Shown here one piece after another: positions 5,851 to 25,139 of a stretch of DNA of 36,454 nt. Positions within the stretch are counted from its first letter, which is position 1, and each line of letters begins with the position of its first letter. Source of the DNA: a virus; IMG/VR virus record IMGVR_UViG_3300048044_000171, positions 1-36,454 of that record. One strand, written 5' to 3'. A model generated the notes under the pieces. The model was not told where the DNA came from. It made no database searches and was given only the letters and a program-made list of their open reading frames with translations. The position numbers and the translations under genes are program-made.

Positions 5851-5877
5851 CTTCGACAAAATACATTAATTTCCTAT
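5851..5877 (-). promoter_or_regulatory. Sigma-H-like promoter for the leftward gene
   Basis: Minus strand reads ATAGGAAAT, 11 nt, GTCGAAG: AGGA and GAA separated by 17 nt, against the known B. subtilis sigma-H consensus RnAGGAwWW-N11/12-RnnGAAT. Only the final T differs. It lies 25 bp before the start codon of the 120-residue gene. Confidence 0.55.
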
Positions 5878-5967
5878 ATGAAGGAACATTCAATTTAAAA
5901 TAATCGGCGTTAATCTTAAGAGCATTGGCACTCGGCGACAAATAAAGAAATTGAGGAGGATTACATC

Positions 5968-6216
5968 GTGAAATTAACTGCAGAGCTATTGGCAAAGCTT
6001 TTGGCCTGGAAAGAAAAGGGTAATCGTGGGTTTACAATTCAAACTTATCGGCGGTATGAAGATGCTTTTATTATTGTCTTCGACTATGCACTCGTAGGAG
6101 ATTTAGAAATCAATGAGTCCAATGTAAATAAAAACTGGTCCGAATTAATTATGCGAGAAAAGAAAGAATTCCTCGCTGCTGAATTGGCTCGGTGCGCAGA
6201 AAATATAGCATTATGA
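5968..6216 (+). CDS. Small early protein, function unknown
   Basis: 82 residues from a GTG with GAGGAGG 8-9 nt upstream. Helical N terminus (MKLTAELLAKLLAWKEKG) and an acidic middle section; no family recognised. It opens the cluster that leads through the next small gene into the Bet recombinase, so it may be a recombination or replication accessory protein, by position only. Confidence 0.65.
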   Translation: MKLTAELLAKLLAWKEKGNRGFTIQTYRRYEDAFIIVFDYALVGDLEINESNVNKNWSELIMREKKEFLAAELARCAENIAL

Positions 6217-6422
6217 GCCTTGCCGATGATAATGGGATTACAGATGCTTTTGATTTATTGAGCGGAAGATGTACAAGGCCAGAGCTGATTAATCCATATC
6301 TCAGAGAGCATTATACGGGGCGGAAACCGCGTGATGGTGAAATGTGGCGCAGTCCCATGAGTAGGGAATTAGTACGGTATGTAGACCTTGAAAAAACGAA
6401 GGATGGTGTAGAAAATGGCTAA
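6213..6422 (+). CDS. Small early protein upstream of bet
   Basis: 69 residues if the ATG at 6213, which overlaps the previous stop as ATGA, is used; a GTG at 6192 would add seven residues. The stretch RKPRDGEMWRSPMSRELVRYVD is distinctive but I do not recognise a family. The stop codon overlaps the start of the recombinase gene by 8 nt, which indicates tight translational coupling. Confidence 0.6.
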   Translation: MSLADDNGITDAFDLLSGRCTRPELINPYLREHYTGRKPRDGEMWRSPMSRELVRYVDLEKTKDGVENG

Positions 6423-7410
6423 TCAGTCCTTACCTGCAATGGTTGGTGATTTTACTCAGGAGCAAGTTGATTTAGTAAAGCGAACAATTGCGAAAGGTGC
6501 CACTGATGATGAATTAAAGATGTTCATATATTTGGCTAATAAATATGGACTCGATCCTTTTGCGAAGGAAATTTGGTTTATTAAGCGTGTGAAGAAGGCC
6601 AAGGATGGTAAAGGTCAGTGGGGTTATCCGCGGCTGCCCAATGGTGATATTGATTATTCTGATGCTGAAACAGTTATTATGACTAGTCGAGATGGTTATC
6701 TAAAAATTGCACAGCAAAATTCGGATTATGATGGTTTGATTGCTTTTGTAGTAAAAGAGGGAGACGACTTCTATATTGATGCTGACGAATATAAGGTGCA
6801 TCACCGATTTGGAACAGATCGAGGAAAAATCATTGGTGCATGGGCCCGTTGTGATCGAGAAGGTAGAAAGCCACAACTGACGTTTGTTGATTTTAGTGAA
6901 TACAATACTGGAAAAGGAGTTTGGGAGAAATATCCAAGTTCTATGATTCAGAAAGTCGCAGAAACTTTTGTACTGAAACGGCAATTTAATATTTCTGGTT
7001 TGGTTACACAGGAAGAATTAAATATTACTCAGATTGATGATCCGTCCCCAGTGGCTCCGGTAAATGTTACCCAACATGAAGCTATCGCTGAAGATCCAAA
7101 GCAGGATGTATCTGAATTTTCCAAGGCTCAGAAAGCCATTGGGGATATGCGACAAGAAGAAAAGCGAACTGCATCTCAACATGAAGGCAATGAGATCACA
7201 GTCAACGATTTGGTTTTAGCGGGGAAAATGGCTGACATGAAGATTAATGATCTTAAGGATCTGGCAGCCAGGATTTCAGGCGGTGAGGCAATATGGCCCA
7301 AAGTACCAGTTGATATTTTGTCAAATATGAGAATAGTAATTGAAGCTATAGCCAAAGCAGGTAAGAATTATTCCGATTATAAGGCTGAAATGGCTAAAGT
7401 CGGTGCATAG
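6415..7410 (+). CDS. bet: Phage recombination protein Bet (RecT/Redβ family)
   Basis: 331-residue single-strand annealing protein that pairs complementary DNA strands during phage recombination and replication. The core (about residues 15-205) carries the Bet-family pattern: ATDDELKMFIYLANKYGLDPFAKEIWFI in pieces, the VIMTSRDGYLKIAQ strand-helix, the WARCDREG hairpin and the closing YPSSMIQKVAETFVLKRQF helix. A variable linker and a helical C-terminal domain follow, probably for binding an SSB or partner protein. No lambda-exo-like nuclease is seen next to it; the nearest nuclease is the DUF1064 gene at 9798. Confidence 0.93.
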   Translation: MANQSLPAMVGDFTQEQVDLVKRTIAKGATDDELKMFIYLANKYGLDPFAKEIWFIKRVKKAKDGKGQWGYPRLPNGDIDYSDAETVIMTSRDGYLKIAQQNSDYDGLIAFVVKEGDDFYIDADEYKVHHRFGTDRGKIIGAWARCDREGRKPQLTFVDFSEYNTGKGVWEKYPSSMIQKVAETFVLKRQFNISGLVTQEELNITQIDDPSPVAPVNVTQHEAIAEDPKQDVSEFSKAQKAIGDMRQEEKRTASQHEGNEITVNDLVLAGKMADMKINDLKDLAARISGGEAIWPKVPVDILSNMRIVIEAIAKAGKNYSDYKAEMAKVGA

Positions 7411-7413
7411 AAA

Positions 7414-7608
7414 ATGCGTTGCAAACGCTGCCATAAAGTCCTGAAAGATCAAACATCGATTGAACGAAAATACGGGTCTATATGTTTTGCTAAGCGGCAA
7501 CAAGAATTGTTTGAACAGATTGAACTAAACTTTAATCCGTTGTTTGCACCAGGAATATCTGCTTTACAGAAGCATGAAATAATCAACCAAGTACTAAGAC
7601 TTAAATAA
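7414..7608 (+). CDS. Small zinc-finger protein (DUF6011-like)
   Basis: 64 residues beginning MRCKRCHKVLKDQTSIERKYG followed by a third cysteine in SICFAKR, the arrangement of the short treble-clef-like DUF6011 proteins found in many phages. It starts 3 nt after the recombinase stop and is probably in the same operon. Role unknown; nucleic-acid or partner binding is plausible. Confidence 0.7.
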   Translation: MRCKRCHKVLKDQTSIERKYGSICFAKRQQELFEQIELNFNPLFAPGISALQKHEIINQVLRLK

Positions 7609-7672
7609 TTATAAGGGCAGACTACATACAACTAGGCTGCCCTATACCTTAAAAATTATGTGGGGTGAGAAG

Positions 7673-8143
7673 ATGATTAGACTCAAAAAAGTCAAAGTCA
7701 CTAATGACAATAAAATCATGATGGTTTACGAGAAGCAGAGTAAAACAGGGGCATGGGATGAATATTCGTTTTCTTGTTCAGAGAAGGCACGGCCGGAGTT
7801 TTATAAGGCTCTGGAAGCTTTGGCGCCCCATGTAATTGAAATGTGCGAGTTGCCTAATGATTATTTATCAAGGATTGAAGTAAAAGGTGTGTCATTTAGT
7901 TATGGCGGAGAAAAAGAAGTCATGGGGGCCACAATATCTGCTGCTATGAAATTAAATGATTCCTATTGCAATCTTAATTTAAATACGCCACACAAAGCAT
8001 CGGATTCATATTCGGATGGACCAGCAGATGAAATGCAGCTTTTATCCGACAAGTGTATTAAAGCCATAGATTGCCTATGTGAGGAAGCTCAGCTTTATAT
8101 TGACGGTGATCGAGCGCAAGGAAAGTTATTTGATGTAGCTTGA
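7673..8143 (+). CDS. Conserved phage early protein, function unknown
   Basis: 156 residues. The ATG at 7673 follows GGGGTGAG; the in-frame ATG at 7658 overlaps that site. The sequence (MVYEKQSKTGAWDEYSFSC..., SFSYGGEKEVMGATISAAMKL, ending QGKLFDVA) resembles a widespread uncharacterised family found next to phage single-strand annealing proteins. Mixed alpha/beta, no catalytic motif evident. Association with recombination/replication is by position. Confidence 0.7.
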   Translation: MIRLKKVKVTNDNKIMMVYEKQSKTGAWDEYSFSCSEKARPEFYKALEALAPHVIEMCELPNDYLSRIEVKGVSFSYGGEKEVMGATISAAMKLNDSYCNLNLNTPHKASDSYSDGPADEMQLLSDKCIKAIDCLCEEAQLYIDGDRAQGKLFDVA

Positions 8144-8158
8144 TAGGGTGGTGTAACA

Positions 8159-9112
8159 ATGGCTAGGCCAGCAAAAGAAGGTTTGGATTATTTTTCTCTT
8201 GATACGGATATTGCAAACGATGACAAAATGAAGCTAATTAAAGCAAAACATGGCCTAGTTGGTTTTGCCATCGTTGTTCTCCTATTAACGAAGATTTATC
8301 ATAACGGCTATTTTTATCAGTGGTCGGAGGATGAGCTGTATCTTTTTTCAGATGATGCTAGGACTGATATAAATACCGTATCAATGGTAGTTAATGACTG
8401 CATTAATAAGGGTTTATTCAGTAAGAAACTATATGATAAATATGGAATATTGACGTCGCACGGAGTACAAAAGAGGTTTTTACAGGCTACTACTAAGCGA
8501 AAAAAAATCATTTTAATTCGTGAATATTTCATCGCAGATGACTATATTCAAACCATTAAATTAGATAACGTTACATTTACTACGGTTTTTTCCGTCAATA
8601 ACCCCATTGCTGATGAGTTAATGACGGAAGAAATACCACAAAGTAAAGTAAAGGAAAGTAAAGAGAAAGAAAAGGATAAAGATCTTTTTGTCCCGACTGT
8701 CGTCGAGGACAGGGCAAGCAATAAGAAATATCATTTTGACCAAGATCATTTGGCGCTGGCTGAGCGGCTCAAACGGCGTATTCTCGAAAACAAGGCTGAT
8801 GCTAAAGTACCGGCTGCTCTTGATCAGTGGGCTGATACCATACGCCTCATGATGGAGCGGGACGAACGGGAGTACGGAAAAATTGTTGCAGTGATTGACT
8901 GGTGCCAACAAGATAACTTTTGGCGACAAAACATTTTAAGTGTCAGTAAGTTGCGAGAAAAGTTTGATCAGCTTGAATTAAAAATGCTTTCTTGTCCAGC
9001 TGGCACTAATAATTTAACCAAGCGTCAGCTGGATGATATCAAGCGTAGGAGGTTGGCGGAAGAATATGACCGGATCAAAAGCGGACAGCTTAATCACGCA
9101 GTGCAAGGCTAA
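8159..9112 (+). CDS. Replication protein, DUF4373 (Lin1244/Lin1753-like) N-terminal domain
   Basis: 317 residues. The N terminus (GLDYFSLDTDIANDDKMKLI, followed by HGLVGFAIVVLLLTKIY) is typical of the DUF4373 winged-helix domain of Firmicute phage and plasmid replication initiators. A lysine-rich linker near residues 160-175 separates it from a helical C-terminal part that probably contacts DNA or the helicase. In related phages this domain recognises the origin, often located within the gene itself. The downstream gene overlaps its end and looks like a helicase-loader partner. Confidence 0.88.
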   Translation: MARPAKEGLDYFSLDTDIANDDKMKLIKAKHGLVGFAIVVLLLTKIYHNGYFYQWSEDELYLFSDDARTDINTVSMVVNDCINKGLFSKKLYDKYGILTSHGVQKRFLQATTKRKKIILIREYFIADDYIQTIKLDNVTFTTVFSVNNPIADELMTEEIPQSKVKESKEKEKDKDLFVPTVVEDRASNKKYHFDQDHLALAERLKRRILENKADAKVPAALDQWADTIRLMMERDEREYGKIVAVIDWCQQDNFWRQNILSVSKLREKFDQLELKMLSCPAGTNNLTKRQLDDIKRRRLAEEYDRIKSGQLNHAVQG

Positions 9113-9671
9113 TTTTCCAACTGAGTTTAGTTTTGACACGACTGACACTATGGGATTATGGCTCAAAATGTTTGGTAACGTAGCTGATGATGTTATGGAA
9201 ACGGCGATTCGGTACTGCTTGCTAAGTTGCAAAAAATTTCCGACTGTGGCCGACATAAAAAGTGCAATCAGCGAAATAAATCGCGATTTAAGTTATCAAA
9301 GTAAGCCGCAACTTGAAGCACCAAGAGCGAAATGGATGTCTAAAGCTGCATCAAAGGCTGCTGCCATTGTTCGTGAAAGTAGAGCAAAAGAATTCCTTGA
9401 TCGTCTTGATTATTCCGACTTACATATTTACGCAAAACAGTATTTCCCTGATATAGCGATTGATATAGTCAAAGAAAATTCGAATGTAGTCCAATACTGC
9501 ATGGAAGAAAACAACCGTTGTACTGGTTGTCAGTGGACAGATGGAAGGTGCCACAGTGATGGCTATTATCCGGTACCAGTGTTAAATAAAAACGGTTCGA
9601 TTTCTTGGGAAATGAAAATGTGTGGAAAGAAGGCGAGTGCATGCGGAATGAACCGTCGCCAAAGTGCATAG
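9066..9671 (+). CDS. Helicase-loader candidate (G39P-like) with C-terminal zinc site
   Basis: 201 residues. The N-terminal 75 residues (LWLKMFGNVADDVMETAIRYCL, then CKKFPTVADIKSAI) match the helical G39P-like domain that binds the replicative helicase in SPP1-type phages. The C terminus has four cysteines (CMEENNRCTGCQ...GRC), a probable zinc ribbon. The ATG at 9066 is preferred over an upstream ATT/ATG-poor extension; an AGGAGG stands about 13 nt before and GGCGGAAG closer. It overlaps the DUF4373 gene by 47 nt, so the pair is probably co-translated and works together at replication start. Confidence 0.75.
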   Translation: MTGSKADSLITQCKANFPTEFSFDTTDTMGLWLKMFGNVADDVMETAIRYCLLSCKKFPTVADIKSAISEINRDLSYQSKPQLEAPRAKWMSKAASKAAAIVRESRAKEFLDRLDYSDLHIYAKQYFPDIAIDIVKENSNVVQYCMEENNRCTGCQWTDGRCHSDGYYPVPVLNKNGSISWEMKMCGKKASACGMNRRQSA

Positions 9672-9805
9672 ATTGCCAGCTTGTAGCGAAAGGAATATAT
9701 CCTTATCCTGTCTGTTATAAGTCACCGGGTAACGAAGGAATGGCAATTAAGATTGACTGGCGTAAATCAGCCGAGAATTGCCGAGCGTTTAAGCGGAATG
9801 GTTAG
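9641..9805 (+). CDS. Small cysteine-containing protein
   Basis: 54 residues; ATG at 9641 preceded by GAAGGCGAG and overlapping the end of the loader gene by 31 nt. The motif CIDCQLVAKG...PVCYK...NCRAFKR has four cysteines spaced as in a small zinc-binding domain. It overlaps the DUF1064 gene by 8 nt. The dense overlaps support translation; function unknown. Confidence 0.55.
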   Translation: MRNEPSPKCIDCQLVAKGIYPYPVCYKSPGNEGMAIKIDWRKSAENCRAFKRNG

Positions 9806-10211: not shown

Positions 10212-10279
10212 ATTATCGGTTATGAATTGTTATGGTTCCACGCGTATAAGAAAACAACTCAAACAAAGGAGGCGTTGAT

Positions 10280-10327
10280 ATGGCACTAAAAATGCTCAGC
10301 CTCTTCAGCATTGAACAGAGGACATAA
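10280..10327 (+). CDS. Possible 15-residue leader peptide
   Basis: ATG with a textbook AAAGGAGG site 7 nt upstream, encoding MALKMLSLFSIEQRT. Two more ribosome sites in this gene-poor region lead into three- and six-codon frames (start near 10381, and GTG at 10641-10661), both followed by or containing ATTTATAGCAT. They could be leader peptides or the decayed starts of lost genes. Translation is unproven. Confidence 0.25.
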   Translation: MALKMLSLFSIEQRT

Positions 10328-10361
10328 AAAAACAGCTATGACCTGGTGAGTGGTCCTAGCT
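10323..10361 (-). terminator. Leftward intrinsic terminator
   Basis: On the minus strand AGCTAGGACC (10361-10352) and GGTCATAGCT (10343-10334) pair with one mismatch around an 8-nt loop and are followed by G and seven Ts. It has no terminator shape on the plus strand. The only leftward gene upstream is at 10671-10928, so that transcript probably carries a 3' extension of about 310 nt. Confidence 0.65.
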
Positions 10362-10404
10362 AAAAGGAGAGGAAAAACAGTTTGCATTTATAGCATTATC
10401 ATTA

Positions 10405-10670: not shown

Positions 10671-10928
10671 TTAAAAAATGATTTTATATACGGCCCAGTC
10701 CTTATCATTTTGGTGACAATAAACTACGTTATTGATTTCATTTGCATCAATTTTCTTTTTAAAGCGTTTTCCTACTTTGAGGATTGATGGATTAGGATAT
10801 TGCTTCCATTCAATAAGTGTGAATAACTCTGGAATAGAAAATTCGCTTGTGATTTTATTATTCCTGCGATTGTTTACCGCAGAAATGATTTTTTGATACA
10901 TTTCAACTTCTATATCGGTAAAACCCAT
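10671..10928 (-). CDS. Leftward accessory small protein (DUF1413-like?)
   Basis: 85 residues, basic, oriented against its neighbours. The middle, SIPELFTLIEWKQYP then GKRFKKKIDANEI, and the ending DWAVYKIIF recall the short DUF1413-type proteins (W, then GxxFK...V/I), but the match is from memory and weak. A GGAGG site precedes the ATG and a sigma-H-like promoter lies about 40 bp upstream. A terminator for this strand lies at 10323-10361. As a self-contained opposite-strand cassette between early and late regions it looks like a moron; function unknown. Confidence 0.65.
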   Translation of the reverse strand: MGFTDIEVEMYQKIISAVNNRRNNKITSEFSIPELFTLIEWKQYPNPSILKVGKRFKKKIDANEINNVVYCHQNDKDWAVYKIIF

Positions 10929-10966: not shown

Positions 10967-10994
10967 ATTCTTGAAATGCAAAAAAAAATCCTTT
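10967..10994 (-). promoter_or_regulatory. Sigma-H-like promoter for the leftward gene
   Basis: The minus strand reads AAAGGATTT and, 18 nt after AGGA, a perfect GAAT. The only departure from the sigma-H consensus is C instead of R three bases before GAAT. It lies about 40 bp from the start codon at 10928. Confidence 0.5.
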
Positions 10995-11876: not shown

Positions 11877-12338
11877 ATGGATTGCATTAGAGAGGCTGAA
11901 AACTATTTGCGATATTATCGTGACTTACATAAGAGTATTAAACACGCGGATCGGATTATCAGTCAGCTTATAGGCCAGTCGGCACCGAAGCCAATCAACG
12001 CGATTGTTTTAGAGGCTACAGGCGTTAGGGCATCTAATCCACGTAACACTTTGAATCAGATGTATCAGCTGCAGAAGTGGCAGGAGATAAGAGAACGGAC
12101 GCTGACCGAGATTGCTAAGGTTGATGACGTTCTTGATTCAATCTGTATTGATCCGGGCTGTGAACGGTACAAGGAATTGCTGTATATGTGGTATGTTGAG
12201 AAACTGGATAAAGAAACTATTGCAGAGGCACTTGGATACAGTAAAAATTCAAAGCAAACTGTATATGACATGAGGCGGGTAGCTATTAAAAAATTTTCTG
12301 TCTCTTTATTTGGTATTGAGGCTTTACAGGCAATCTAA
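11877..12338 (+). CDS. ArpU/RinA-like late transcription regulator
   Basis: 153 residues, helical, with a sigma-region-4-like helix-turn-helix near the C terminus (KLDKETIAEALGYSKNSKQTVY, then MRRVAIKKFS). Such proteins sit at the end of early regions of Firmicute phages, just before the small terminase gene, and activate the late structural operon. The gene has GGGGGAGGGG upstream and is followed by the accessory island rather than directly by the packaging genes, so its target promoter must lie in or beyond the island. Assignment rests on domain type and position. Confidence 0.8.
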   Translation: MDCIREAENYLRYYRDLHKSIKHADRIISQLIGQSAPKPINAIVLEATGVRASNPRNTLNQMYQLQKWQEIRERTLTEIAKVDDVLDSICIDPGCERYKELLYMWYVEKLDKETIAEALGYSKNSKQTVYDMRRVAIKKFSVSLFGIEALQAI

Positions 12339-12390: not shown

Positions 12391-12576
12391 GTGAAAAATT
12401 GTAATTAACTATAGAACGCTTGCATAAGATGATTGAAGTTGGCAAATGATGCTGATCACATGAATAGGGAAAGGTCGTTGAGCAAGATGTAGATGTGCCG
12501 TAATAGCGGCTGTGATTTTTCACCCTCCCCTGCACTATAATGACCAAAGGCTGCTCATTGAGCGGCCTTTTTTATT
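12391..12576 (+). ncRNA. Candidate structured small RNA, about 186 nt
   Basis: No coding frame of note lies here. The 5' sequence GTGAAAAAT (12391-12399) is the perfect complement of ATTTTTCAC (12515-12523), closing a domain of about 130 nt. Inside are CTTGC/GCAAG and the small hairpin GCCG-taatag-CGGC. The closing stem is followed by CCTCCCC, an anti-Shine-Dalgarno-like C-rich stretch, and then an intrinsic terminator. Promoter, closed fold, C-rich motif and terminator together suggest a trans-acting or 6S-like RNA. Alternatively it is a 5' leader of the cargo operon with an attenuator. A second TATAAT (12536-12541) is a competing explanation. Confidence 0.45.
12547..12576 (+). terminator. 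Rightward intrinsic terminator
   Basis: AAGGCTGCTC (12547-12556), loop ATT, GAGCGGCCTT (12560-12569), then a T-run. Ten base pairs with one G-U. It isolates the first cargo cassette from the early operon and ends the candidate RNA. Confidence 0.88.
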
Positions 12577-12577
12577 C

Positions 12578-12604
12578 GCAGGGAAATATCTCCTTTTGGC
12601 GAAA
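12578..12604 (+). promoter_or_regulatory. Sigma-H-like promoter, cargo cassette 1
   Basis: GCAGGGAAA...GGCGAAA: AGGG and GAAA separated by 17 nt. It shares GCAGG and an internal CCTTTTG with the two other island copies. It lies directly after the terminator and 34 bp before the DUF4145 gene. Confidence 0.5.
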
Positions 12605-12637
12605 GATGTATGAAGACGGTAAAAGGAGAGAAACAAC

Positions 12638-13366
12638 TTGGAAGATAAAGGTGCGATTGGAAAAGTACTGTTATGTATCTCTTGTGGAAATAAAACCTTT
12701 ATGGGGAAAGTTGCTAGCTATCAGGATAAGGAAGAGGAATGGGATGAGGATGATTATGAACGTTTCCACGTAGGCACAATTAGCAAGACATGGGAGCTGT
12801 ATTTTTGCCCTGTATGCCATAACGTCACTCTAGAGCTAATTCAATGGGAAGATTATCATGGTTGCCCGGAACCTAGAACTTATACAATCGTATATCCAGC
12901 TATGATGTCAAAATCTCAAGCTGTTCCAATGAAGATTAAAAGAGCATTTGATGCTGCTTTGAAAGTAAGAAATATTGATGGGGCAATTTGTGCCTTATCC
13001 ATAAGGCGAACGTTAGAAATGATGTGTAAAGAAAAAGGAGAAACTAAAGGTTCTTTATATCAGAAATTAACCAATCTAGCCCTTAAGGGAATCCTTCCGC
13101 CTATATTGGATAAAATGGCATCAGTATTAAGAACATTAGGTAATAATGCTGCCCATGCAGAAGATAAAGATTTTCCACCAAAATTAGTTTCTTCAATGAT
13201 TGAGTTTACTGAAATTATACTTGACTATGTTTATCTACTTCCGAAGAAACTTGCTGACATTCAATCTGATATTGACAAAGAAAAATCAAATTTCGCAACT
13301 CCAATTGCTGAAACTGATGCAAGTATGTCGGAAAATATAGATGTAAAGGATTTTTTTACAATTTAA
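12638..13366 (+). CDS. Zinc-ribbon DUF4145 protein, defence candidate
   Basis: 242 residues, TTG start about 9 nt after AAAAGGAGAG. The N terminus has two CxxC pairs (C13/C16 and C57/C60), a zinc ribbon. Residues 100-215 form the helical DUF4145 domain, with the pattern ALSIRRTLEMMCKEKG, LYQKL, GILPP and LRTLGNNAAHAED. R165 and H173 in that last motif resemble the HEPN-type arginine/histidine pair, so an RNase activity is possible. DUF4145 domains are common in restriction and other defence genes. It forms its own cassette with promoter and terminator, next to the two-gene membrane module. The first 62 residues and the tail after 215 show no other motif. Confidence 0.78.
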   Translation: MEDKGAIGKVLLCISCGNKTFMGKVASYQDKEEEWDEDDYERFHVGTISKTWELYFCPVCHNVTLELIQWEDYHGCPEPRTYTIVYPAMMSKSQAVPMKIKRAFDAALKVRNIDGAICALSIRRTLEMMCKEKGETKGSLYQKLTNLALKGILPPILDKMASVLRTLGNNAAHAEDKDFPPKLVSSMIEFTEIILDYVYLLPKKLADIQSDIDKEKSNFATPIAETDASMSENIDVKDFFTI

Positions 13367-13409: not shown

Positions 13410-13436
13410 GCAGGTAAATGATTCCTTTTGCTGAAG
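13410..13436 (+). promoter_or_regulatory. Sigma-H-like promoter, cargo cassette 2
   Basis: GCAGGTAAA...GCTGAAG: AGGT and GAAG at 17 nt spacing, sharing GCAGG and ATTCCTTTTG-type core with the neighbours. A T-run that may belong to a weak terminator of the DUF4145 gene immediately precedes it (13401-13406). It drives the two-gene module. Confidence 0.5.
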
Positions 13437-13482
13437 TAGGTAAAAATTAATAGAAATTGCATTAGGCAAAGGAGTGTATGTC

Positions 13483-14316
13483 ATGATTCGAGAAATGATT
13501 GTTTTATTTGGTCGTTTAAATTTAATTGCTAACTATGATGATAAGGGGAAATATCTACTTACCAGCTTACAAGCAGATAAGCAGATAAATGTACGTGAAT
13601 TTGACTGGGGATTTTTTGATGTTTCTGAATTTGAATATGAAGATCAGCGTTATATTTTAGGAAATTTGGTAAAATATAAATCAAAATTAACCGAAGAATT
13701 TGTTGATAAACAAACTAGAAGAACAACTAACACACAAATAAATGATCGCGTCGTGGCTAAGTCTGAATTTATTTTACATATAAAAAGTGGATTAATTGCA
13801 TATCATACAATTAATAATCACATAACTCATCAACAATTTCAAAAGTTTTTTGCTGAACTTGTAGAAGCTGCGAATGATTATCTTTTAGTAAATGCCGAGA
13901 TACAGAGTATTAATGAGCAAAATGAAATCTTGGAAGCTATTCAGAAGTTCGAAACAATTAATCGACTCACTATATATTTGCATCCATCAAATCCTCGGTT
14001 TAGTGATCGTTGGGAAAAAGTCGATAAAAAGCTAAAAGCTATGTCTGCCCATTCGTATAGAGCAATTTATCAAACACAAAGTAGCCTTGCAATCGAGGCA
14101 GATGAAGATGCTATGAGCGAAATTTATATGGCCGTTGATGGTTATGGAAGAGCTACCGTCCATGGGACTAAAAATGGTAAATCAGCTACCGCTAGTACTG
14201 TTAATGCACCAATGAAACAAAACATTTCTTTATCGGAAGATCCAAAAGAAATGCTTACTGGTGTTCTCGATAAATTTCGTGAAATTTGGGATAGGATGAC
14301 TAAAAGTGAAATGTAA
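13483..14316 (+). CDS. RexA-like soluble protein of a two-gene module (candidate)
   Basis: 277 residues, ATG at 13483 with AAAGGAG 8 nt upstream. Mixed alpha/beta protein without signal or membrane segments. Distinct stretches are SEFILHIKSGLIAYHTINNH, a helical pair around residues 125-165, LTIYLHPSNPRFSDRWEK, and a Thr/Ser/Lys-rich strand region. I associate this pattern with prophage proteins of the DUF4747 type, from memory only. The next gene overlaps by 11 nt and encodes a four-helix membrane protein. Length and partner match lambda RexA (soluble sensor, about 280 residues) with RexB. No sequence homology to RexA is claimed. Abortive infection is the working hypothesis. Confidence 0.7.
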   Translation: MIREMIVLFGRLNLIANYDDKGKYLLTSLQADKQINVREFDWGFFDVSEFEYEDQRYILGNLVKYKSKLTEEFVDKQTRRTTNTQINDRVVAKSEFILHIKSGLIAYHTINNHITHQQFQKFFAELVEAANDYLLVNAEIQSINEQNEILEAIQKFETINRLTIYLHPSNPRFSDRWEKVDKKLKAMSAHSYRAIYQTQSSLAIEADEDAMSEIYMAVDGYGRATVHGTKNGKSATASTVNAPMKQNISLSEDPKEMLTGVLDKFREIWDRMTKSEM

Positions 14317-14797
14317 GGATTTTTTTATTAGTTGGGATTTCTTTATTGCACTTGTTGTTGGAATTATATGTGCGTGTACTTTCCCTAGCGTGGTGGGGGG
14401 AAGCATTCTAAAAGACATATACTTTACTGTAATAACTGTTTTGGCTATTATATTTCCGATTTTCTTTGCTGCATTGGCGATAATGATGTCATTTAGCGAT
14501 AATGACTTTGTTGATTTTTTAGAAGAAGACCGTATATTTAGTCAATTGTTATCGCAGTTTTCTTTTTCTATAGGAGTACAATTCTTTACTCTTATTCTGG
14601 CACTTTTATTATATGGACATGTATTATTTAATGCGCCGAATCCATTTTTTGGACACTTAAAAATACAAGTAGTTGTTTTTGTCTCCTTGTTTTTATATAC
14701 ACTTATAGCTGTCTATCTTTCTACGCTAGATGCTATTCATTATTTAAAACAAAGAATAAAATTTATTCAAATAAAGTATAAGAATAAAGAAAGATGA
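14306..14797 (+). CDS. Four-helix membrane protein, RexB-like partner (candidate)
   Basis: 163 residues from a GTG that overlaps the previous gene by 11 nt; AGGATG lies about 9 nt upstream. Four hydrophobic helices at about residues 12-32, 38-62, 86-108 and 119-142, joined by an acidic loop (SDNDFVDFLEEDR) and followed by a basic tail (KQRIKFIQIKYKNKER), so both ends are probably cytoplasmic. No signal peptide or catalytic motif. Translational coupling to a soluble partner, the size and four-helix topology parallel lambda RexB. It could equally be a channel-type effector of another abortive system. Very AT-rich compared with the structural genes, in keeping with recent acquisition. Confidence 0.7.
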   Translation: MKCKDFFISWDFFIALVVGIICACTFPSVVGGSILKDIYFTVITVLAIIFPIFFAALAIMMSFSDNDFVDFLEEDRIFSQLLSQFSFSIGVQFFTLILALLLYGHVLFNAPNPFFGHLKIQVVVFVSLFLYTLIAVYLSTLDAIHYLKQRIKFIQIKYKNKER

Positions 14798-14802: not shown

Positions 14803-14828
14803 AGCGTCCTATCCAGGGCGCTTTTCTT
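14803..14828 (+). terminator. Terminator of the two-gene module
   Basis: AGCGTCCT (14803-14810), loop ATCC, AGGGCGCT (14815-14822; one G-U), then TTTTCTT. It directly precedes the next sigma-H-like promoter, repeating the terminator-promoter-gene pattern of the island. Confidence 0.75.
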
Positions 14829-14838: not shown

Positions 14839-14865
14839 GCAGGAAGACATTGCCTTTTGCCGAAC
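14839..14865 (+). promoter_or_regulatory. Sigma-H-like promoter, cargo cassette 3
   Basis: GCAGGAAGA...GCCGAAC: AGGA and GAAC 17 nt apart; first eight positions agree with RnAGGAwWW except G in a W position. It has the shared CCTTTTG spacer and lies 35 bp before the next gene. Confidence 0.55.
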
Positions 14866-14899
14866 AATGTATAAAAATGGTAAAGGGAGTGTGTATAAG

Positions 14900-15205
14900 A
14901 TGAGTTGGGAAAACGATTTAAGAGATGATAATATTTCAGAATCATATAAACTTGTCGGGGAATGGAAGGTTTATGTTGGACGTAAACGGATTGGAATTAA
15001 GGTTTGGCAGAATAGTAATGGAAAATATGATTATGATACGAGCCATTTTTATCAGGGACCGCAACAACCAGGACCACATCAGTCTAGCCGAGCAAACCTT
15101 GGTACTGATCAAGAGGCCCTCCTTGCAGCGGAGTCTCAAATACTCTCATATTATGACAGTAATTATAACGATGATAAGTACTGGAAACTTAATAATGAAT
15201 ATTAA
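14900..15205 (+). CDS. Small cargo protein, function unknown
   Basis: 101 residues. ATG at 14900 is preferred, as AAAGGGAGTG lies upstream at a suitable distance; an ATG at 14867 would start inside promoter sequence. An N-terminal beta-rich part (YKLVGEWKVYVGRKRIGIKV) is followed by a proline/glutamine linker (GPQQPGPHQS) and an acidic, tyrosine-rich end (SYYDSNYNDDKY). No family recognised. It is the third cassette of the island with its own promoter. Confidence 0.6.
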   Translation: MSWENDLRDDNISESYKLVGEWKVYVGRKRIGIKVWQNSNGKYDYDTSHFYQGPQQPGPHQSSRANLGTDQEALLAAESQILSYYDSNYNDDKYWKLNNEY

Positions 15206-15889: not shown

Positions 15890-16774
15890 ATGGCTCAGGC
15901 TTATGAGTTAGCCGAAAAAGATTATATTCTCGGATTGAAGTATAAGGCTATAGCTGAAAAGTATGGTGTATCGGAAAATACAGTCAAGTCATGGCGGAAA
16001 AGACATGGCTGGTCTAGGGATAAAACGGCAAAAATAGGTGCACCCATTGCACCCCTAAAAAATCAAAAAGGTTGCACCCCAAAAAATAAGGGAAAACCGG
16101 AACCAGAAGAAGAGCGGTCCGATCAGGAGCAGCTTTTTTGTTATCATTACGTCCGGACGCATAACGCCACGCAAGCGGCTCTTCTGTCTGGATATGCCAA
16201 AGGTGGAAATAAGGCCAGCGCCCAGGTGATCGGCAGCCGCTTATACAATCGCCCACGTGTTAGACAAGAGATTGATCGTTTGACAGAATTATTTCGCCAG
16301 GACATTCATGTCAATATACAGGACTTTATTGCCTTCTGCATGAAGGTGGTTGGCGCTGATGTTGGTGACTATCTGACTTGGGGGCAAAAAGAAGTACCTG
16401 TTATGGGGATGTTTGGGCCTGTAATTAATCAGGAGACAAACGAGCCACTTACTAAAATGGTCAATTATGTCGATCTTGGCGAAAGCGAAATGCTTGATAC
16501 ATCGGTCATTTCTGAAGTCAAGCAAGGCAAGGATGGCATCAGCATTAAGCTAGCAGATAAGAAATGGGCCTGGGAGCAGCTTACGAAGTATTTCGACTGG
16601 CTGCCGGATCAGTGGCAGCGTAAGGTTGAAGGCGAAAGATTAACGCTTGAAAGTAAGAAAGTTAAGTTGATGGAACGTAAGCTTGGCGATGATGACGATC
16701 CCAAAGAAGACGATAACAGCTTTTTGGAAGCTTTGAAAGGTAAAGTCCCGGAGGTGTGGGACAATGGCTCTTAA
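15890..16774 (+). CDS. terS: Terminase small subunit
   Basis: 294 residues; recognises the packaging start site and presents it to the large subunit. An N-terminal helix-turn-helix (AEKYGVSENTVKSWRKRHGW) is followed by a linker and the terminase_2-type core with NATQAALLSGYAKGGNKASA and the RQEIDRL helix, then a helical C-terminal region ending in acidic residues. The ATG at 15890 overlaps a minimal AUG-UAA start-stop (15885-15890), both after the strong GGAGGTGGTG. Overlaps the large-subunit gene by 11 nt. Confidence 0.92.
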   Translation: MAQAYELAEKDYILGLKYKAIAEKYGVSENTVKSWRKRHGWSRDKTAKIGAPIAPLKNQKGCTPKNKGKPEPEEERSDQEQLFCYHYVRTHNATQAALLSGYAKGGNKASAQVIGSRLYNRPRVRQEIDRLTELFRQDIHVNIQDFIAFCMKVVGADVGDYLTWGQKEVPVMGMFGPVINQETNEPLTKMVNYVDLGESEMLDTSVISEVKQGKDGISIKLADKKWAWEQLTKYFDWLPDQWQRKVEGERLTLESKKVKLMERKLGDDDDPKEDDNSFLEALKGKVPEVWDNGS

Positions 16775-18041
16775 GGTTACTCCTTTTAAGTTTGAAACGT
16801 TTTCTAAAAAGCAGCTGCAAGTATTAACCTGGTGGCTACCTAATTCGCCTGTACGCGATATGGATATGATTATTGCTGATGGATCGGTAAGATCTGGAAA
16901 AACAATATCTATGTCATTGTCATATATTCAGTGGTCCATGTCTGAATTTAATGGCGAAAATTTTGGCCTGTCGGGCAAAACTATTGGTTCGTTTAGGCGT
17001 AACGTACTGGTGCCACTCAAACGAATGCTGAAGGCTCTGAAATACCGTGTCAAAGATCATCGCGCCGATAACATGGTTGAGATTAGTAAAGGTGGCAAGA
17101 CAAACTTTTATTACGTGTTTGGTGGTAAGGACGAGCGTAGCCAGGACCTTATACAGGGTATTACGTTGGCAGGTATGCTATTCGATGAAGTTGCATTAAT
17201 GCCCCAGTCATTTGTCAACCAGGCAACGGCTCGCTGTTCAGTAAGCGGTGCTAAGCTTTGGTTTAATTGTAATCCAGAAGGTCCTTATCATTGGTTTAAT
17301 ACTGAATATATTGAGCAGGCGGAAGAAAAGAACGCTGTTTACCTACACTTTACTATGGACGATAATCTGAGTTTATCGGATTCGGTCAAAAACCGTTACA
17401 AACGCATGTATTCAGGCGTCTTTTTTAAGCGTTACATTCTTGGCTTATGGGTAATGGCCGCCGGTGCTATTTATGACATGTTCAGCGAAGAAAAGCATGT
17501 TATAAGGGATGCACCGAAGCACTTCGACAAGTTGTGGATATGCAGTGATTATGGTACCGGAAATGCAACTGTATTTTTGTTGCAGGGGCGAGTAGGAAAA
17601 AAGTATTACACTTTACGAGAATATTACTATGACAGCCGAAAGGTAGGCCGCCAAAAAACAGATGTTGAGTATTCGGTGGACTTGAAAAAATTTATAGATG
17701 ACAGCAAAGATATCTTGCAAGGCCGCCAGGTTACGATTATCGTTGACCCTAGTGCGGCTTCTTTTATAGCTCAGCTACGTAAAGATGGCTTCACTGTTAA
17801 GTCTGCGCAGAATAGCGTGCTTGATGGTATTCGCTGGGTGGCGTCGTTGTTATCTGAGCTCCAATACTTTATTTGTGATGGATGCGTAAATACAATCAAG
17901 GAGAAAAGTGCCTATCTTTGGGATGAGAAGGCCCAGGATAGAGGCGAAGATAAGCCCGTAAAACAAAATGATCATGCTTCAGATGCTGAACGATATGGGC
18001 TATATACTAACCGCACAAAAGGCGGTATGTCTGTTTACTAG
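16764..18041 (+). CDS. terL: Terminase large subunit
   Basis: 425-residue packaging motor, PBSX/SPP1 type. Walker A GSVRSGKT (residues 40-47) and Walker B LFDEVALMP (acids 141-142) form the ATPase; the C-terminal RNase-H-like nuclease is marked by SDYGTGN, VDPSA and the closing NDHASDAERYG acids. Complete in length. Directly precedes the portal gene, the standard order. Confidence 0.96.
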   Translation: MALKVTPFKFETFSKKQLQVLTWWLPNSPVRDMDMIIADGSVRSGKTISMSLSYIQWSMSEFNGENFGLSGKTIGSFRRNVLVPLKRMLKALKYRVKDHRADNMVEISKGGKTNFYYVFGGKDERSQDLIQGITLAGMLFDEVALMPQSFVNQATARCSVSGAKLWFNCNPEGPYHWFNTEYIEQAEEKNAVYLHFTMDDNLSLSDSVKNRYKRMYSGVFFKRYILGLWVMAAGAIYDMFSEEKHVIRDAPKHFDKLWICSDYGTGNATVFLLQGRVGKKYYTLREYYYDSRKVGRQKTDVEYSVDLKKFIDDSKDILQGRQVTIIVDPSAASFIAQLRKDGFTVKSAQNSVLDGIRWVASLLSELQYFICDGCVNTIKEKSAYLWDEKAQDRGEDKPVKQNDHASDAERYGLYTNRTKGGMSVY

Positions 18042-21183: not shown

Positions 21184-21205
21184 TTCAATTTAGGGGGAAT
21201 TGTTA

Positions 21206-22150
21206 ATGGCTTATAATAGCGTAATTAATCGTACTGATGCGGGGGCACTAATTCCGGAAACTGTGTCGCAAGAAATCATCCAGGGTGCAATTGGGCAGAG
21301 TCTTGTATTGCAGTTGTTCCGCAAATTGCCGAACATGCCGACAAATAAGACCCGCATGCCTGTGCTTTCGTCTATGCCTACGGCCTATTTTGTCAACGGT
21401 GATACGGGGTTAAAGCAGACTTCGAAAATATCCTGGGATAACAAATATTTGCAGGTAGAGGAAATTGCTTGCATCGTACCCATTCCGGAAGCGGTACTTG
21501 ACGATTCGGCCTATGATATTTGGGGCGAGGTAAAGCCACGTATCATGGAATCATTTGGGCAAGTAATTGATGGCGCTGTACTATTTGGCGTGAATAAACC
21601 TGCAGATTGGCCCAACGATATTGTTACAGGGGCTACTGCGGCCGGCACGATTGTAACAGCAGCGGCAACGGATGTAGACCTAGTGGAAGACACCAATCAA
21701 CTCATGGCGAAGGTAGAAGATTGCGCCTTTGATGTAACTGGATTTGTTGGTGATATTACCATGAAGTCGAAATACCGAGGCTTACGTGACAAGAATGGAG
21801 GACTGTTGTTTCAGCCCTCGCTTGCAGCCGGTACGCCTTCCACTTTGTACGGTCAATCTATTCTGTACAATAAGCTTGGGTACTGGGATAATACTAAGGC
21901 CAAAATGATTGCGGGTGACTTTAGCCAAGCGGTATATGCTATGCGGCAGGATATTACGTACAAGGTGCTTGACCAGGCGGTTATTCAGGACGGCACAGGC
22001 GCGATTGTCTATAATTTGGCGCAGCAGGATATGGTAGCTTTGCGCTGCGTGATGCGTCTTGCTTGGCAGTTACCTAATCCGATTAACGCCCGTAGAGAAG
22101 TAGAAGCCGAGCGTTATCCGTTCGCCATCTACAAACCAGCTGCTGCATAA
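21206..22150 (+). CDS. Major capsid protein (HK97 fold)
   Basis: 314 residues from ATG at 21206 with AGGGGGAAT upstream (21200 gives two extra residues without spacing). Family traits include TDAGALIPETVSQEIIQ, PVLSSMPTAYFVNGD, VPIPEAVLDDS, the P-domain-like DITMKSKYRGLRDKNGGLLF, and the closing VALRCVMRLAWQL. HK97-like with no separate protease gene nearby, so the scaffold is probably removed by other means. Confidence 0.92.
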   Translation: MAYNSVINRTDAGALIPETVSQEIIQGAIGQSLVLQLFRKLPNMPTNKTRMPVLSSMPTAYFVNGDTGLKQTSKISWDNKYLQVEEIACIVPIPEAVLDDSAYDIWGEVKPRIMESFGQVIDGAVLFGVNKPADWPNDIVTGATAAGTIVTAAATDVDLVEDTNQLMAKVEDCAFDVTGFVGDITMKSKYRGLRDKNGGLLFQPSLAAGTPSTLYGQSILYNKLGYWDNTKAKMIAGDFSQAVYAMRQDITYKVLDQAVIQDGTGAIVYNLAQQDMVALRCVMRLAWQLPNPINARREVEAERYPFAIYKPAAA

Positions 22151-22184
22151 GTGGCTGGTATTTTCTTTAGGCGGGTGATAAAAC

Positions 22185-22508
22185 ATGACTGAAGCCGAGG
22201 CCCTTAGTAAGATGAAACGTAAGTGCTTGGTGCTGAGCCAGTTTTTCAACGACACCGACTTGGTTGGCTTTCTAGACGACAATAAATCGGGCGCTGGCAC
22301 AGAAGCCGCGCCTTATTTCTATGATATTCGGCGCAGCACGTATGATGCCCTGACAAGTGTTCTCACTACAATGGAGCAGTCAACGACTAGGGGCGGCGTG
22401 ACTACTACTTATGCCGATCTATTTAAGATCAGGCGGCAGTATGCGACAGCGGGGGTGATTAGCTTATGCGGCAATTCCGGTTCCCCGATGCGACTGCCTA
22501 CACTGTAA
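22185..22508 (+). CDS. Head-tail connector protein (gp6/gp15-like)
   Basis: 107 residues. Compact helical adaptor (EALSKMKRKCLVLSQFFNDTD, FYDIRRSTYDALTSVLT) expected under the portal. Overlaps the next gene by 43 nt, as in many connector clusters. Assignment from position and helical pattern. Confidence 0.75.
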   Translation: MTEAEALSKMKRKCLVLSQFFNDTDLVGFLDDNKSGAGTEAAPYFYDIRRSTYDALTSVLTTMEQSTTRGGVTTTYADLFKIRRQYATAGVISLCGNSGSPMRLPTL

Positions 22509-22792
22509 AGAGGCTTGTGATTACAAAAGATGAGCTGAACGCAGAAATTGAGGACTGGCAGGATATTGGCACCATTATGGCAGAGGTTTGGCCGTTGCAA
22601 GGCAATCAGTCGCGAGGAGAGATGGGCGTGACGGAAAGAAGCACTCATAAGGCGTTTTCTTCCGATCCGGGAGCCTTCGAGAGTAACACGCGACTAGTTA
22701 GCGAGAGCGGTCTTACTTATCTTGTTGGCTACACCTCACCCCAGGGATGGGGATCTCACGGAGAGGCGGTGCTTGAATTTGTCAACAGTTAG
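22466..22792 (+). CDS. Head closure protein (SPP1 gp16-like)
   Basis: 108 residues beginning MRQFRFPDATAYTVKRLVIT, followed by IGTIMAEVWPLQG and GLTYLVGYTSPQGW, a beta-barrel pattern typical of the head-completion stopper family. Starts inside the previous gene. Confidence 0.8.
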   Translation: MRQFRFPDATAYTVKRLVITKDELNAEIEDWQDIGTIMAEVWPLQGNQSRGEMGVTERSTHKAFSSDPGAFESNTRLVSESGLTYLVGYTSPQGWGSHGEAVLEFVNS

Positions 22793-23171
22793 CGCCGAAA
22801 TGGGCGGACTAAATGACTTATTACGGAATATTGACATTCTAAAAGATGTCACTGTGACAGCCCAGGCGGCAGGCATGGCCAAAGTTTGCATTGACGTTGC
22901 AGATTATGCTAGGGCAAATCATCCCTTTCAGAATCGGACGCAGAATCTTGAAAATAGCATTCAGCCAGATCCGGTAGAAATTGAAGATGGCGTGGTTGTT
23001 GGTCCTGTGCGTGCCGGTATGGAGTATGCCGCTTATGTAGAGTTCGGTACTGCAAAAAGTTCACCTTATCCGTACCTGAATCCAGCTGTTGAGGCTAATA
23101 AGCAAAACTTATCTGACACGATGAAAGCAGTACAAGAACGGGCTCAACAATCATTGAAGGTGGAAACATGA
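22773..23171 (+). CDS. Tail completion protein (HK97 gp10 family)
   Basis: 132 residues with a TTG start at 22773 after GAGAGG; an ATG at 22800 has no ribosome site. The core shows the HK97 gp10 signature: ARANHPFQNRTQNLENSI, VVVGPVRAGMEYAAYVEFGT and SSPYPYLNPAVEANKQ. It joins the tail to the completed head. Slightly overlaps both neighbours. Confidence 0.9.
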   Translation: MNLSTVSAEMGGLNDLLRNIDILKDVTVTAQAAGMAKVCIDVADYARANHPFQNRTQNLENSIQPDPVEIEDGVVVGPVRAGMEYAAYVEFGTAKSSPYPYLNPAVEANKQNLSDTMKAVQERAQQSLKVET

Positions 23172-23548
23172 AGCAGGCTAAGATAAATATCGCTGCCGGT
23201 CTAAACGCCAGTATAACTTTGGCTGCTATCGTTGGCACCCGCATTAGCGATTCTTGGCCAAGCGAAAAGACTGTTTACCCCTGCGTGACCTACCTGCAAG
23301 TGACAGGCCTGGGAGAGATTGCCGACGGCCGCACTATTGGCTTTGATGAAATCTATCAGATATCGCTATTCGCGAAGCCGGAGCCGGGTAAGTCTGCAGC
23401 AATGACACTCGAAGACATGGCCATGTCCGTGCTTGATGTGGCCGACGATTTAGGCATGCCCATGGTTGGCAATGGCGATTTAATCCTGGACGATGGATCA
23501 GGAGTGAAACACAAGCCTTTACGATTTAGATATGTAACAAGGAGGTAA
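23168..23548 (+). CDS. Tail terminator protein (DUF3168-like)
   Basis: 126 residues; overlaps the previous stop (ATGA). Segments RISDSWPSEKTVYPCVTYLQ, FDEIYQISLFAK and KHKPLRFRYVTRR match the tail terminator fold that caps tail-tube polymerisation. Next to the tube gene, as expected. Confidence 0.82.
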   Translation: MKQAKINIAAGLNASITLAAIVGTRISDSWPSEKTVYPCVTYLQVTGLGEIADGRTIGFDEIYQISLFAKPEPGKSAAMTLEDMAMSVLDVADDLGMPMVGNGDLILDDGSGVKHKPLRFRYVTRR

Positions 23549-23556
23549 TTGAAATT

Positions 23557-24477
23557 ATGACAATGTCAAAAGTTTCGGGCATTTTCGGTGTTCGTGAGGC
23601 GTGGATTGCTCCAATGATTACCGATGCGACCGACGCAGAAGTGACCTGGAATGTGCCTATCAAAGTAGATGGGATAAAATCTTTTAAACCAGATCCAAAC
23701 GTGACCAGTTCGCAAAACTCTGGTGATGAAATGACCTTGGACACTGAAGATGTGATTGACTATTATAAAATCACTTGGGAAAACGCAGAACTTCCACTTG
23801 ATCTAATCGCAGCTCTTCATGGCGGCGAGGTTAGTTCTACGGGAGCAGATTCAGCAGAGGTATTGTCTTATGTTTACGCAGGTAATACGGCAGTAACAAG
23901 CTACTTTAAGTTTAGTGCCTTGGCTAAACGAGGCAGCAATGATACAAAAGACGTTATGGTTGAGTTCTATAAAGTGAAAGGAACTTTGAGCTTTGACCTT
24001 TCATCTGGCGCATTTTCTAAATGCTCCTTCACCGGGACGGCGATTCGTACGAAGGGAACAGTAGGCGGTAAAGCAAATGCCTTATTTGGCCTTAAATATG
24101 GGGCTTCTACACTTAGTATTACCGGAGCCACTAAGCAGGTAAATACTGCTACTGTAGCAGGGACTATTACTACTGCGGGTAATGCAACGGTAACCGTTAC
24201 TGCAGCAGGAATGACAGGATCTCCGAAAGCCTTTAGTATTCCTACTGCTTTAGGAGATACTCCGGTAATTACAGCTTTCCGTATCCGTTTGGCATTGGCC
24301 GCGGATACCGCGATCACATCGTTATTCAGCGTAGGCGGTAGCGGCGCGGATATAGTATTAACGAGATTGATCCCGGCCACTAATGATGCGACGCTCAACA
24401 TTGCAATTGCAAATGGCACTTGTGTGGGCTTAACAGCTGCGCCAACTTCGATCAATACGACGCCAGGTCAAGCTTAG
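23557..24477 (+). CDS. Major tail tube protein with extra C-terminal domain
   Basis: 306 residues. The first 200 form the tube domain (VSGIFGVREAWIAPM, FKPDPNVTSSQNSGDEM, YKITWENAELPLDLIAAL, SFDLSSGAFSKCSF). From about residue 213 a separate beta-rich module follows (VAGTITTAGNATVTVTAAGM, GSPKAFSIP, GGSGADIVLTR), of a kind found repeatedly in phage surface proteins and decorating the tail exterior. The start after AAGGAGGT is clear; a second ATG two codons later is possible. A strong terminator follows. Confidence 0.9.
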   Translation: MTMSKVSGIFGVREAWIAPMITDATDAEVTWNVPIKVDGIKSFKPDPNVTSSQNSGDEMTLDTEDVIDYYKITWENAELPLDLIAALHGGEVSSTGADSAEVLSYVYAGNTAVTSYFKFSALAKRGSNDTKDVMVEFYKVKGTLSFDLSSGAFSKCSFTGTAIRTKGTVGGKANALFGLKYGASTLSITGATKQVNTATVAGTITTAGNATVTVTAAGMTGSPKAFSIPTALGDTPVITAFRIRLALAADTAITSLFSVGGSGADIVLTRLIPATNDATLNIAIANGTCVGLTAAPTSINTTPGQA

Positions 24478-24483
24478 TTAATG

Positions 24484-24516
24484 AGAGAGGCGAAAAACCT
24501 CTCTTAATCTTTTTTT
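24484..24516 (+). terminator. Terminator after the tail tube gene
   Basis: AGAGAGG (24484-24490) and CCTCTCT (24498-24504) followed after TAATC by seven Ts. Explains high expression of capsid and tube genes relative to downstream tail genes. Confidence 0.82.
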
Positions 24517-24531
24517 ATAAAGGGTGAGAAT

Positions 24532-24990
24532 ATGAAACTAACAGAACTTTTTCCTGAAGCGGTAAAGGTAAAAATATTAGATAAAGAGTATTCCGTCGTA
24601 TTTGGTACGAGAGCCTTGATTCAGCTTGAACGTGACTACCCAGATGAAAAGAAACGTGCCGGGTTATTGCGAATTTTGCCTGACAAGAAAGAAGAAAATC
24701 CGCAAATGCAGCTTAAAATCGGGGGAACCGTGGATCTGGTTAATCTGCTTTACGCCGGTCTTCTACATACGAAAGCTTTTCCTGATAAGGATTTACTGAT
24801 CGACGCAATTGAACCGCGAGATTACCCGGATTATATTAATGCCATTTTTTCAGCGTTTATCAACTCTCAGGCAACGCCTGAACAGCTTGAAAAGATGGAA
24901 GTCTTGGCCGAATCTAGCAAATCAAAAAAAAACGAGGAGCCCGCGATTACGGTTCAGAGTATGCCTTCTATCGATCAAAGTGCAGACTAA
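24532..24990 (+). CDS. Tail assembly chaperone, short form (gpG-like)
   Basis: 152 residues. Beta-strands with SVVFGTRALIQLERDYPDEK and a helical middle fit the tail-chaperone family; the C terminus (SSKSKKNEEPAITVQSMP) is variable. A -1 frameshift at 24927-24933 produces a longer second product. Short and long forms together coat the tape measure before tube assembly. Confidence 0.88.
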   Translation: MKLTELFPEAVKVKILDKEYSVVFGTRALIQLERDYPDEKKRAGLLRILPDKKEENPQMQLKIGGTVDLVNLLYAGLLHTKAFPDKDLLIDAIEPRDYPDYINAIFSAFINSQATPEQLEKMEVLAESSKSKKNEEPAITVQSMPSIDQSAD

Positions 24991-25121
24991 CAAAGGAAGA
25001 ATACCTTAACGCAACAGAACGGGAGCTACTGGCTCTGTCTATTGGCTATGCCGAAATGAACGGGGCCAAGACGGAATACGATGACCCGTTGGACTTTTTT
25101 GGTATGCAACAGAAGGAATAA
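24532..25121 (+). CDS. Tail assembly chaperone, frameshifted long form (gpGT-like)
   Basis: A single -1 frameshift at the heptamer A AAA AAC (24927-24933) fuses the short chaperone to a C-terminal extension of about 60 residues in the adjacent frame, with DYGSEYAFYRSKCRLTKEEY, then ELLALSIGYAEMNGAKTEY and a terminal PLDFFGMQQKE. Total about 196 residues. In lambda and many siphophages the ratio of the two products sets chaperone function. The extension has no start or ribosome site of its own, so frameshifting is the only plausible route. Confidence 0.85.
24927..24933 (+). promoter_or_regulatory. -1 ribosomal frameshift site
   Basis: A AAA AAC in the zero frame, preceded by three more As (nine in all, 24924-24932). 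Canonical X XXY YYZ slippery heptamer; an A AAA AAA slip at 24924-24930 is also possible. Confidence 0.85.
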
Positions 25122-25139
25122 AACCTCTTTTTGTTGAAT
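25112..25139 (+). promoter_or_regulatory. Sigma-H consensus promoter of the tail-operon moron
   Basis: GAAGGAATA, 12 nt, GTTGAAT: all defined positions of the RnAGGAwWW-N11/12-RnnGAAT consensus are met. It overlaps the stop codon of the frameshifted chaperone and ends 23 bp before the secreted-protein gene. Confidence 0.65.

Follow-up and report, generated by a model that had tools for sequence, protein, structure and literature searches.

A sigma-H-like promoter with an anti-Shine-Dalgarno spacer: a probable transferable cassette for cargo genes in phages of spore-forming Bacillota

Cargo cassettes at the locus

The window (i.e. the whole stretch of viral DNA analysed, 36,454 nucleotides) carries an ArpU/RinA-like late regulator (11877-12338, + strand; phrog_36, phrog_248) just 5′ of an island of three cargo cassettes, and the packaging genes begin on the 3′ side of the island (15890-18041, + strand), with a probable small subunit at 15890-16774 and the large terminase at 16764-18041. 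A fourth cassette is found within the tail operon. No near DNA relatives of the window were found among named phages, and no relatives of the island proteins encoded from 12638 and 13474 among viral contigs; the relatives of the terminase are spread over Bacilli and Clostridia.

In all four cassettes, two boxes resembling those of sigma-H promoters flank a spacer that is predicted to act as the 5′ (anti-Shine-Dalgarno, anti-SD) arm of a hairpin formed with the SD region of the cargo gene. An intrinsic terminator (12546-12570, + strand; 11-bp stem and T tail) lies directly 5′ of cassette 1, the sigma-H-like promoter element of which (GCAGGGAAA-TATCTCCTTTT-GGCGAAA; 12578-12604, + strand) contains the anti-SD arm, at about 12589-12601, as its spacer. 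The 3′ arm of hairpin 1 (12617-12629, + strand) includes the SD AAAAGGAGA, and the hairpin has a folding energy of -14.3 kcal/mol, equalled in 0/200 shuffles; the predicted probability that the SD is unpaired is 0.01 in read-through RNA vs 0.91 in RNA from the predicted transcription start. The cargo gene (12638-13366, + strand) encodes a DUF4145 protein (phrog_1305) that resembles the defence protein PD-T7-4.

The element of cassette 2 (GCAGGTAAA-TGATTCCTTTT-GCTGAAG; 13410-13436, + strand), with its anti-SD arm at about 13421-13428, forms in the predicted fold a weaker hairpin (z -1.2) with the SD AAAGGAGT as 3′ arm (13468-13475, + strand), the SD being unpaired with a probability of 0.04 in read-through RNA vs 0.66 from the predicted start. 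It precedes the gene of a DUF4747 protein (13483-14316, + strand), for which the ATG at 13483 is the likely start codon in preference to the GTG at 13474, and which is overlapped by the gene of a small membrane protein with no family match (14306-14797, + strand), probably carried on the same transcript. A second intrinsic terminator (14803-14822, + strand) is followed by the element of cassette 3 (GCAGGAAGA-CATTGCCTTTT-GCCGAAC; 14839-14865, + strand; anti-SD arm about 14847-14861), by the 3′ arm of hairpin 3 with the SD AAAGGGAG (14879-14892, + strand; -14.8 kcal/mol, 2/200 shuffles; predicted probability of an unpaired SD 0.05 in read-through RNA vs 0.98 from the predicted start) and by the gene of a hypothetical protein (14900-15205, + strand; likely start the ATG at 14900).

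Cassette 4, within the tail operon, has a 12-nt spacer (GAAGGAATA-AAACCTCTTTTT-GTTGAAT; 25112-25139, + strand), the anti-SD arm of which (25124-25136) forms 13 bp with the 3′ arm CGGCAAGGAGGGG (25144-25156, + strand; -15.2 kcal/mol, 2/200 shuffles), so that in read-through RNA its SD has a predicted unpaired probability of 0.02. No terminator was found by eye in the folded 30 nt upstream of 25112. The cargo gene, placed between tail genes (25163-25708, + strand), encodes a protein with a signal-peptide-like N-terminus, an orthologue of which, 83% identical, is found in prophage record L015.

The original prediction had placed six sigma-H-like promoters in the window, namely the four described above and two on the minus strand (5851-5877 and 10967-10994), and all six sequences are indeed present. 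The geometry by which they had been recognised, i.e. AGGN and GAA at a distance of 17 or 18 nt, shows no enrichment: it occurs 29 times in the window, and shuffled sequences contain it 36 times on average. Near-perfect matches to the consensus RNAGGAWWW-N11/12-RNNGAAT are slightly in excess of chance (eight 12/13 matches vs 5.2 expected, and two 13/13 matches vs 0.2 expected). The site at 25112 fits every defined position (13/13), as had been claimed; the second full match (10841-10867, - strand) falls within the coding region 10671-10928(-), and the island copies at 12578, 13410 and 14839 agree with the consensus at 11/13 positions.

A weight matrix trained solely on other phage contigs, and therefore independent of the window, gives scores of 35.6 at 12578, 30.9 at 14839, 26.6 at 13410 and 19.0 at 25112 (the last scored with a spacer 1 nt longer), the shuffle maximum being 9.3. 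These four sites are true members of one family. That the window sites are chance matches to a loose consensus holds for the geometry as first worded and for the site at 10967(-), but for the four strong sites this explanation is already refuted by scores above those of every shuffle, and as a general account it retains practically no probability. The site at 5851-5877(-), ahead of the gene 5464-5826(-), matches 12/13 consensus positions and scores 11.0, just over the shuffle maximum; it can be counted as a plain sigma-H-like promoter at best and lacks a hairpin, the SD being unpaired with a probability of 0.46 in read-through RNA. The site at 10967-10994(-) is a chance-level match, was not recovered by the matrix scan of the window and has a value of 0.38 for the unpaired SD in read-through RNA, in which the four members give 0.01-0.05, and it was rejected as a member of the family.

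Thus, the proposal of a cargo regulon with sigma-H-type promoters stands for four of the six sites, and is extended by the wider family described below, but 10967(-) drops out and 5851(-) is weakly supported. All four strong sites lie ahead of non-core genes, and none is found before the replication or the structural operon, in agreement with what had been noted by eye. In the relative record G001 the site at 25112 is kept, and additional copies are found at 13421(+), 14071(+) and 4299(-). The last of these lies left of the replication genes, near the position of the window site 5877(-) but before a different gene; the SD here, GGAAAGGAAA, is a weak one and pairs with the spacer TTTCTTTTGTC.

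The element in phage and host genomes

When a 26-bp pattern derived from the island copies (GCAGGNWN7CCTTTTGNCGAA) was searched in viral contigs, at least 118 phage contig stretches proved to carry the element GCAGGAAAnTnTCTCCTTTTGTCGAAT, vs 2 for a reversed-pattern control, with 110 sites left once near-duplicates were removed; among spacer-length variants of the pattern, the 11-nt version occurs in 41 stretches and the 12-nt version in 15. The patterns used to gather the sites fixed certain positions, so that conservation at those positions is partly by construction. The distance from GAA to the start codon of the following gene has a median of 28 nt in the phage sites. Named carriers are Anoxybacillus phage A403, Aeribacillus phage AP45, Geobacillus phage GBSV1 and Parageobacillus phage NIIg3.2. 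In all loci with a recognised large terminase (41/41), the motif is on the terminase strand and 0.8-7 kb upstream of the gene, usually 0.8-4 kb 5′ of it. In a sample of Bacillales genomes, seven of the eight exact matches adjoin a large terminase gene, i.e. belong to prophages, and the eighth stands ahead of a HAD hydrolase gene; with one mismatch allowed, 57 matches are found in 40/200 genomes vs 4 control matches. Matches in plasmids are mostly weak and off-motif.

The proteins encoded behind the motif are mutually unrelated, short and mostly without a known family. Those recognised include PIN domains, DUF3908, Cse60, DUF4145, an AbiGi-like protein and a TIR effector; the PHROG families listed for the cargo are all of unknown function but for one DNA-binding protein, and no head, tail or replication families are among them. 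In one phage (G016, locus L043), four near-identical elements stand before four different genes within about 2.6 kb, forming a cassette array, and at least three prophage records of a single genome, IMG 2901394022 (L015, L029 and L075), each carry the element. A variant is seen at L232 (11583-11609, - strand) and L238 (1805-1831, + strand), where the -35-like box and CTCC are kept and TTTTGTC is replaced by ATAGCGC or ATAACAC, with a distant CGTGTTA...GGAGG, in what looks like a second hairpin architecture.

Pairing of the spacer with the Shine-Dalgarno sequence

The original prediction had noticed that the island copies share CCTTTTG, which they do, but had overlooked that this sequence belongs to the arm of an RNA hairpin and that this arm is complementary to the SD further 3′. 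Indeed, the spacer CTCCTTTTG is complementary to the SD of each cargo gene, about 15-25 nt downstream, and is near-fixed in phages (TTTTGTC is kept in 32/39 sites when these positions are left free); it is not conserved at spoVG. Spacers with CCC or additional bases are accompanied by corresponding changes around the SD, and in locus L044 the arms AATAGTACCTTTTGT and ACAGGAGGTGCTATT are paired along their whole length. Over the family, spacer and SD covary with a z of about -7: native arms pair with -14.19 kcal/mol vs -12.73 kcal/mol (sd 0.21) for arms swapped between loci, and the native value is reached in 0/200 swaps (z -6.9). The difference persists for the non-modal, i.e. variable, arms alone (z -6.6), and anchoring the register on the core still leaves more pairing at the flanking positions than swapped arms give (p=0.0025).

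These comparisons bear on the possibility that the cassettes are plain sigma-H promoters, in which the spacer CTCCTTTT is kept for a DNA-level reason, such as a contact with RNA polymerase or Spo0A, and the complementarity to the SD is a by-product. The sequence TTTTGTCGAA could pass for a Spo0A box, any CTCC run pairs with AGGAGG, and swapped arms still hide the SD in 90/110 sites; the superior pairing of native arms, also among the non-modal ones and beyond the core, and the lack of the spacer in spoVG promoters make such an explanation quite unlikely.

Folding of the 110 sites was used to compare the two RNA forms, the RNA from the predicted start being taken to begin 7 nt after GAA. The SD is unpaired with a probability of 0.12 in read-through RNA, 0.68 in RNA from the predicted start and 0.42 when the motif is scrambled, and the spoVG leaders used as controls give 0.39 in both RNA forms. 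The models thus predict that read-through RNA buries the ribosome-binding site and that RNA from the predicted start leaves it open. Compared with shuffled sequences, the hairpins at 13410 and in G001 have only moderate stability.

The strong hairpin and the covariation would also be expected of an RNA-only element, i.e. a leader with a sequestered SD that is opened by a ligand, a protein or a small RNA and contains no promoter. However, GCAGGAA is found at a fixed upstream distance, is unpaired in the hairpin and matches the -35 box of sigma-H promoters, and no Rfam family matches the element, which leaves this reading very unlikely. A description of the element was found neither in Rfam nor in the literature covered, which was mostly open-access text and has the motif sequence in just one, unrelated, paper, and an earlier description may exist.

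Promoter boxes, proposed mode of action and relation to known systems

The sequence GCAGGAAAA-N11-GTCGAAT meets the published sigma-H consensus, and the outer boxes of the phage sites are GNAGGAWW and GNYGAAW. Nearly all spoVG genes of Bacillales, taken as a positive control (25 loci), have G[AC]AGGAWW-N11/12-GNNGAAT about 40 nt before the start codon, the spacer between the boxes being unconserved. With one mismatch allowed, the pattern also hits host promoter regions, among them those of spo0A, divIVA, a DUF948 (ytxG-like) gene and a comGA-like gene. A one-mismatch scan of Clostridia likewise returned the promoter region of spo0A itself (L195, 1501-1526). A point of caution is that sigma-H prefers T after GAA, but this base is T in only 54% of the phage sites, and A, G and C in the island copies. 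A spore sigma-H above the curated cut-off is encoded by 16/16 motif-bearing genomes tested vs 0/41 Lactobacillales, and the motif, even with one mismatch, is absent from all 199 Lactobacillales genomes scanned (199/199). Judged by their sequence, the outer boxes of the cassette are most likely a promoter read by host sigma-H.

Which factor reads the promoter may nonetheless be asked with the ArpU/RinA-like gene of the window in mind, since a phage late factor (ArpU/RinA or a positive-control sigma-like protein) could act on the cassettes as on late lytic promoters of the T4 kind. Cassettes are often found just 3′ of such a regulator gene, as in the window and in 20/29 loci where a regulator was found, and Aeribacillus phage AP45 and Parageobacillus phage NIIg3.2 share this order. 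However, a relative of the regulator is found in only 29/72 loci, no cassette was seen ahead of a structural operon, and the same boxes precede host spoVG, spo0A and divIVA, genes that need no phage factor. Furthermore, ArpU-family genes are present in 17/41 genomes of the motif-free Lactobacillales, which counts against a phage-encoded reader. A phage late regulator is, therefore, disfavoured as the reader, and its involvement is unlikely.

With host sigma-H as the preferred reader, it is likely that the element is a transferable cassette for moron genes in phages of spore-forming Bacillota, which combines a sigma-H-type promoter with an anti-SD spacer silencing read-through RNA. It is also likely, if somewhat less firmly so, that one 26-bp stretch serves both as a host stationary-phase promoter and as an anti-SD arm, the cargo being on in lysogens that enter stationary phase and translationally silent in lytic read-through. 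Host sigma-H would read the outer boxes and the cargo would, thus, be made in the lysogen on leaving exponential growth. The anti-SD arm lies 5′ of the predicted transcription start and would be carried only by RNA coming in from further 5′, for instance a late lytic transcript; such RNA would fold via the arm and mask the ribosome-binding site. A transcript initiated at the promoter itself would begin past the arm and, therefore, be translated. In many cases the cassette has a terminator before it, as do 12578 and 14839, which would be a first barrier; at 25112, inside the tail operon, the hairpin would be the sole insulation. What the sequence comparisons establish is the motif family, its position, the covarying pairing, the likeness to sigma-H promoters and the joint occurrence with spore sigma-H; the transcription start, the use of sigma-H, the expression of the cargo, its translational silencing and the benefit of having cargo off in lytic growth are inferred.

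Morons of temperate phages are extra genes with their own promoter and terminator, which stand outside the lytic programme. The cassette genes share these features, being non-core genes inserted in the phage genome with a promoter and a terminator of their own. Unlike in usual morons, the promoter is sigma-H-like and not of the sigma-70 type, and a translational insulation lies within the spacer. Bacillus-type sigma-H promoters (e.g. spoVG and spo0A; RnAGGAwWW-N11/12-RnnGAAT) have the same -35 and -10 boxes and the same spacing as the cassette, but their spacer is unconserved and the SD is not sequestered.

The closest parallel is offered by phage T4, in which the promoters of gene e, soc and I-TevI (also of segB and mobE) lie inside a hairpin that sequesters the ribosome-binding site, so that long upstream transcripts hide it and the short RNA from the promoter in the 5′ arm or loop, lacking the arm, is translated (PMC2988022, PMC3014915). 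As with e, soc and I-TevI, the hairpin of the cassette is predicted to hide the site in long RNA, with the 5′ arm preceding the start of the short one. In contrast, the T4 genes depend on a late sigma of the phage and are limited to late infection, whereas the boxes of the cassette are of the host sigma-H type and not those of a phage late sigma, which would restrict expression to lysogens or stationary cells and so serve an opposite purpose; the cassette is, furthermore, one standard element placed before more than 100 unrelated cargo genes. It works like the T4 system but is not a member of it, and the two are a case of convergence on a promoter placed inside its own silencing hairpin.

In Staphylococcus aureus, host sigma-H drives the prophage gene int (PMC2869324), also from a sigma-H-type promoter that lies near the SD in a 5′ region conserved in the phages, but with a different sequence (GGGTAGCCC...TTTTTTGCCAATTT), the integrase as target, no SD-pairing spacer reported and an occurrence in staphylococcal phages only. 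The action of host sigma-H on a prophage gene is, thus, already known; what may be new is a promoter with a gene-matched anti-SD spacer before phage cargo.

If the proposed mechanism is correct, the cassette lets a temperate phage hold cargo within or beside its lytic operons and keep it silent during lytic growth, host physiology serving as the switch. The signature could then serve to locate phage cargo, lysogenic-conversion and defence genes via their regulation instead of homology, defence-like examples behind the motif being the PD-T7-4-like protein of the window and a TIR-domain protein elsewhere. In a Bacillales chromosome, boxes of the same sigma-H-like type, without the CC spacer, precede a gene for a BREX BrxC/D-like ATPase (L212, 1501-1526). 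A TIR-domain gene of a host chromosome stands behind GCAGGATTTTCCTACTTTTTGTCGAA (L209, 1501-1526), where pairing with the SD region GTAGGAGG is again seen, here through the spacer CCTAC, and three sites of this last type are found in genome G074.
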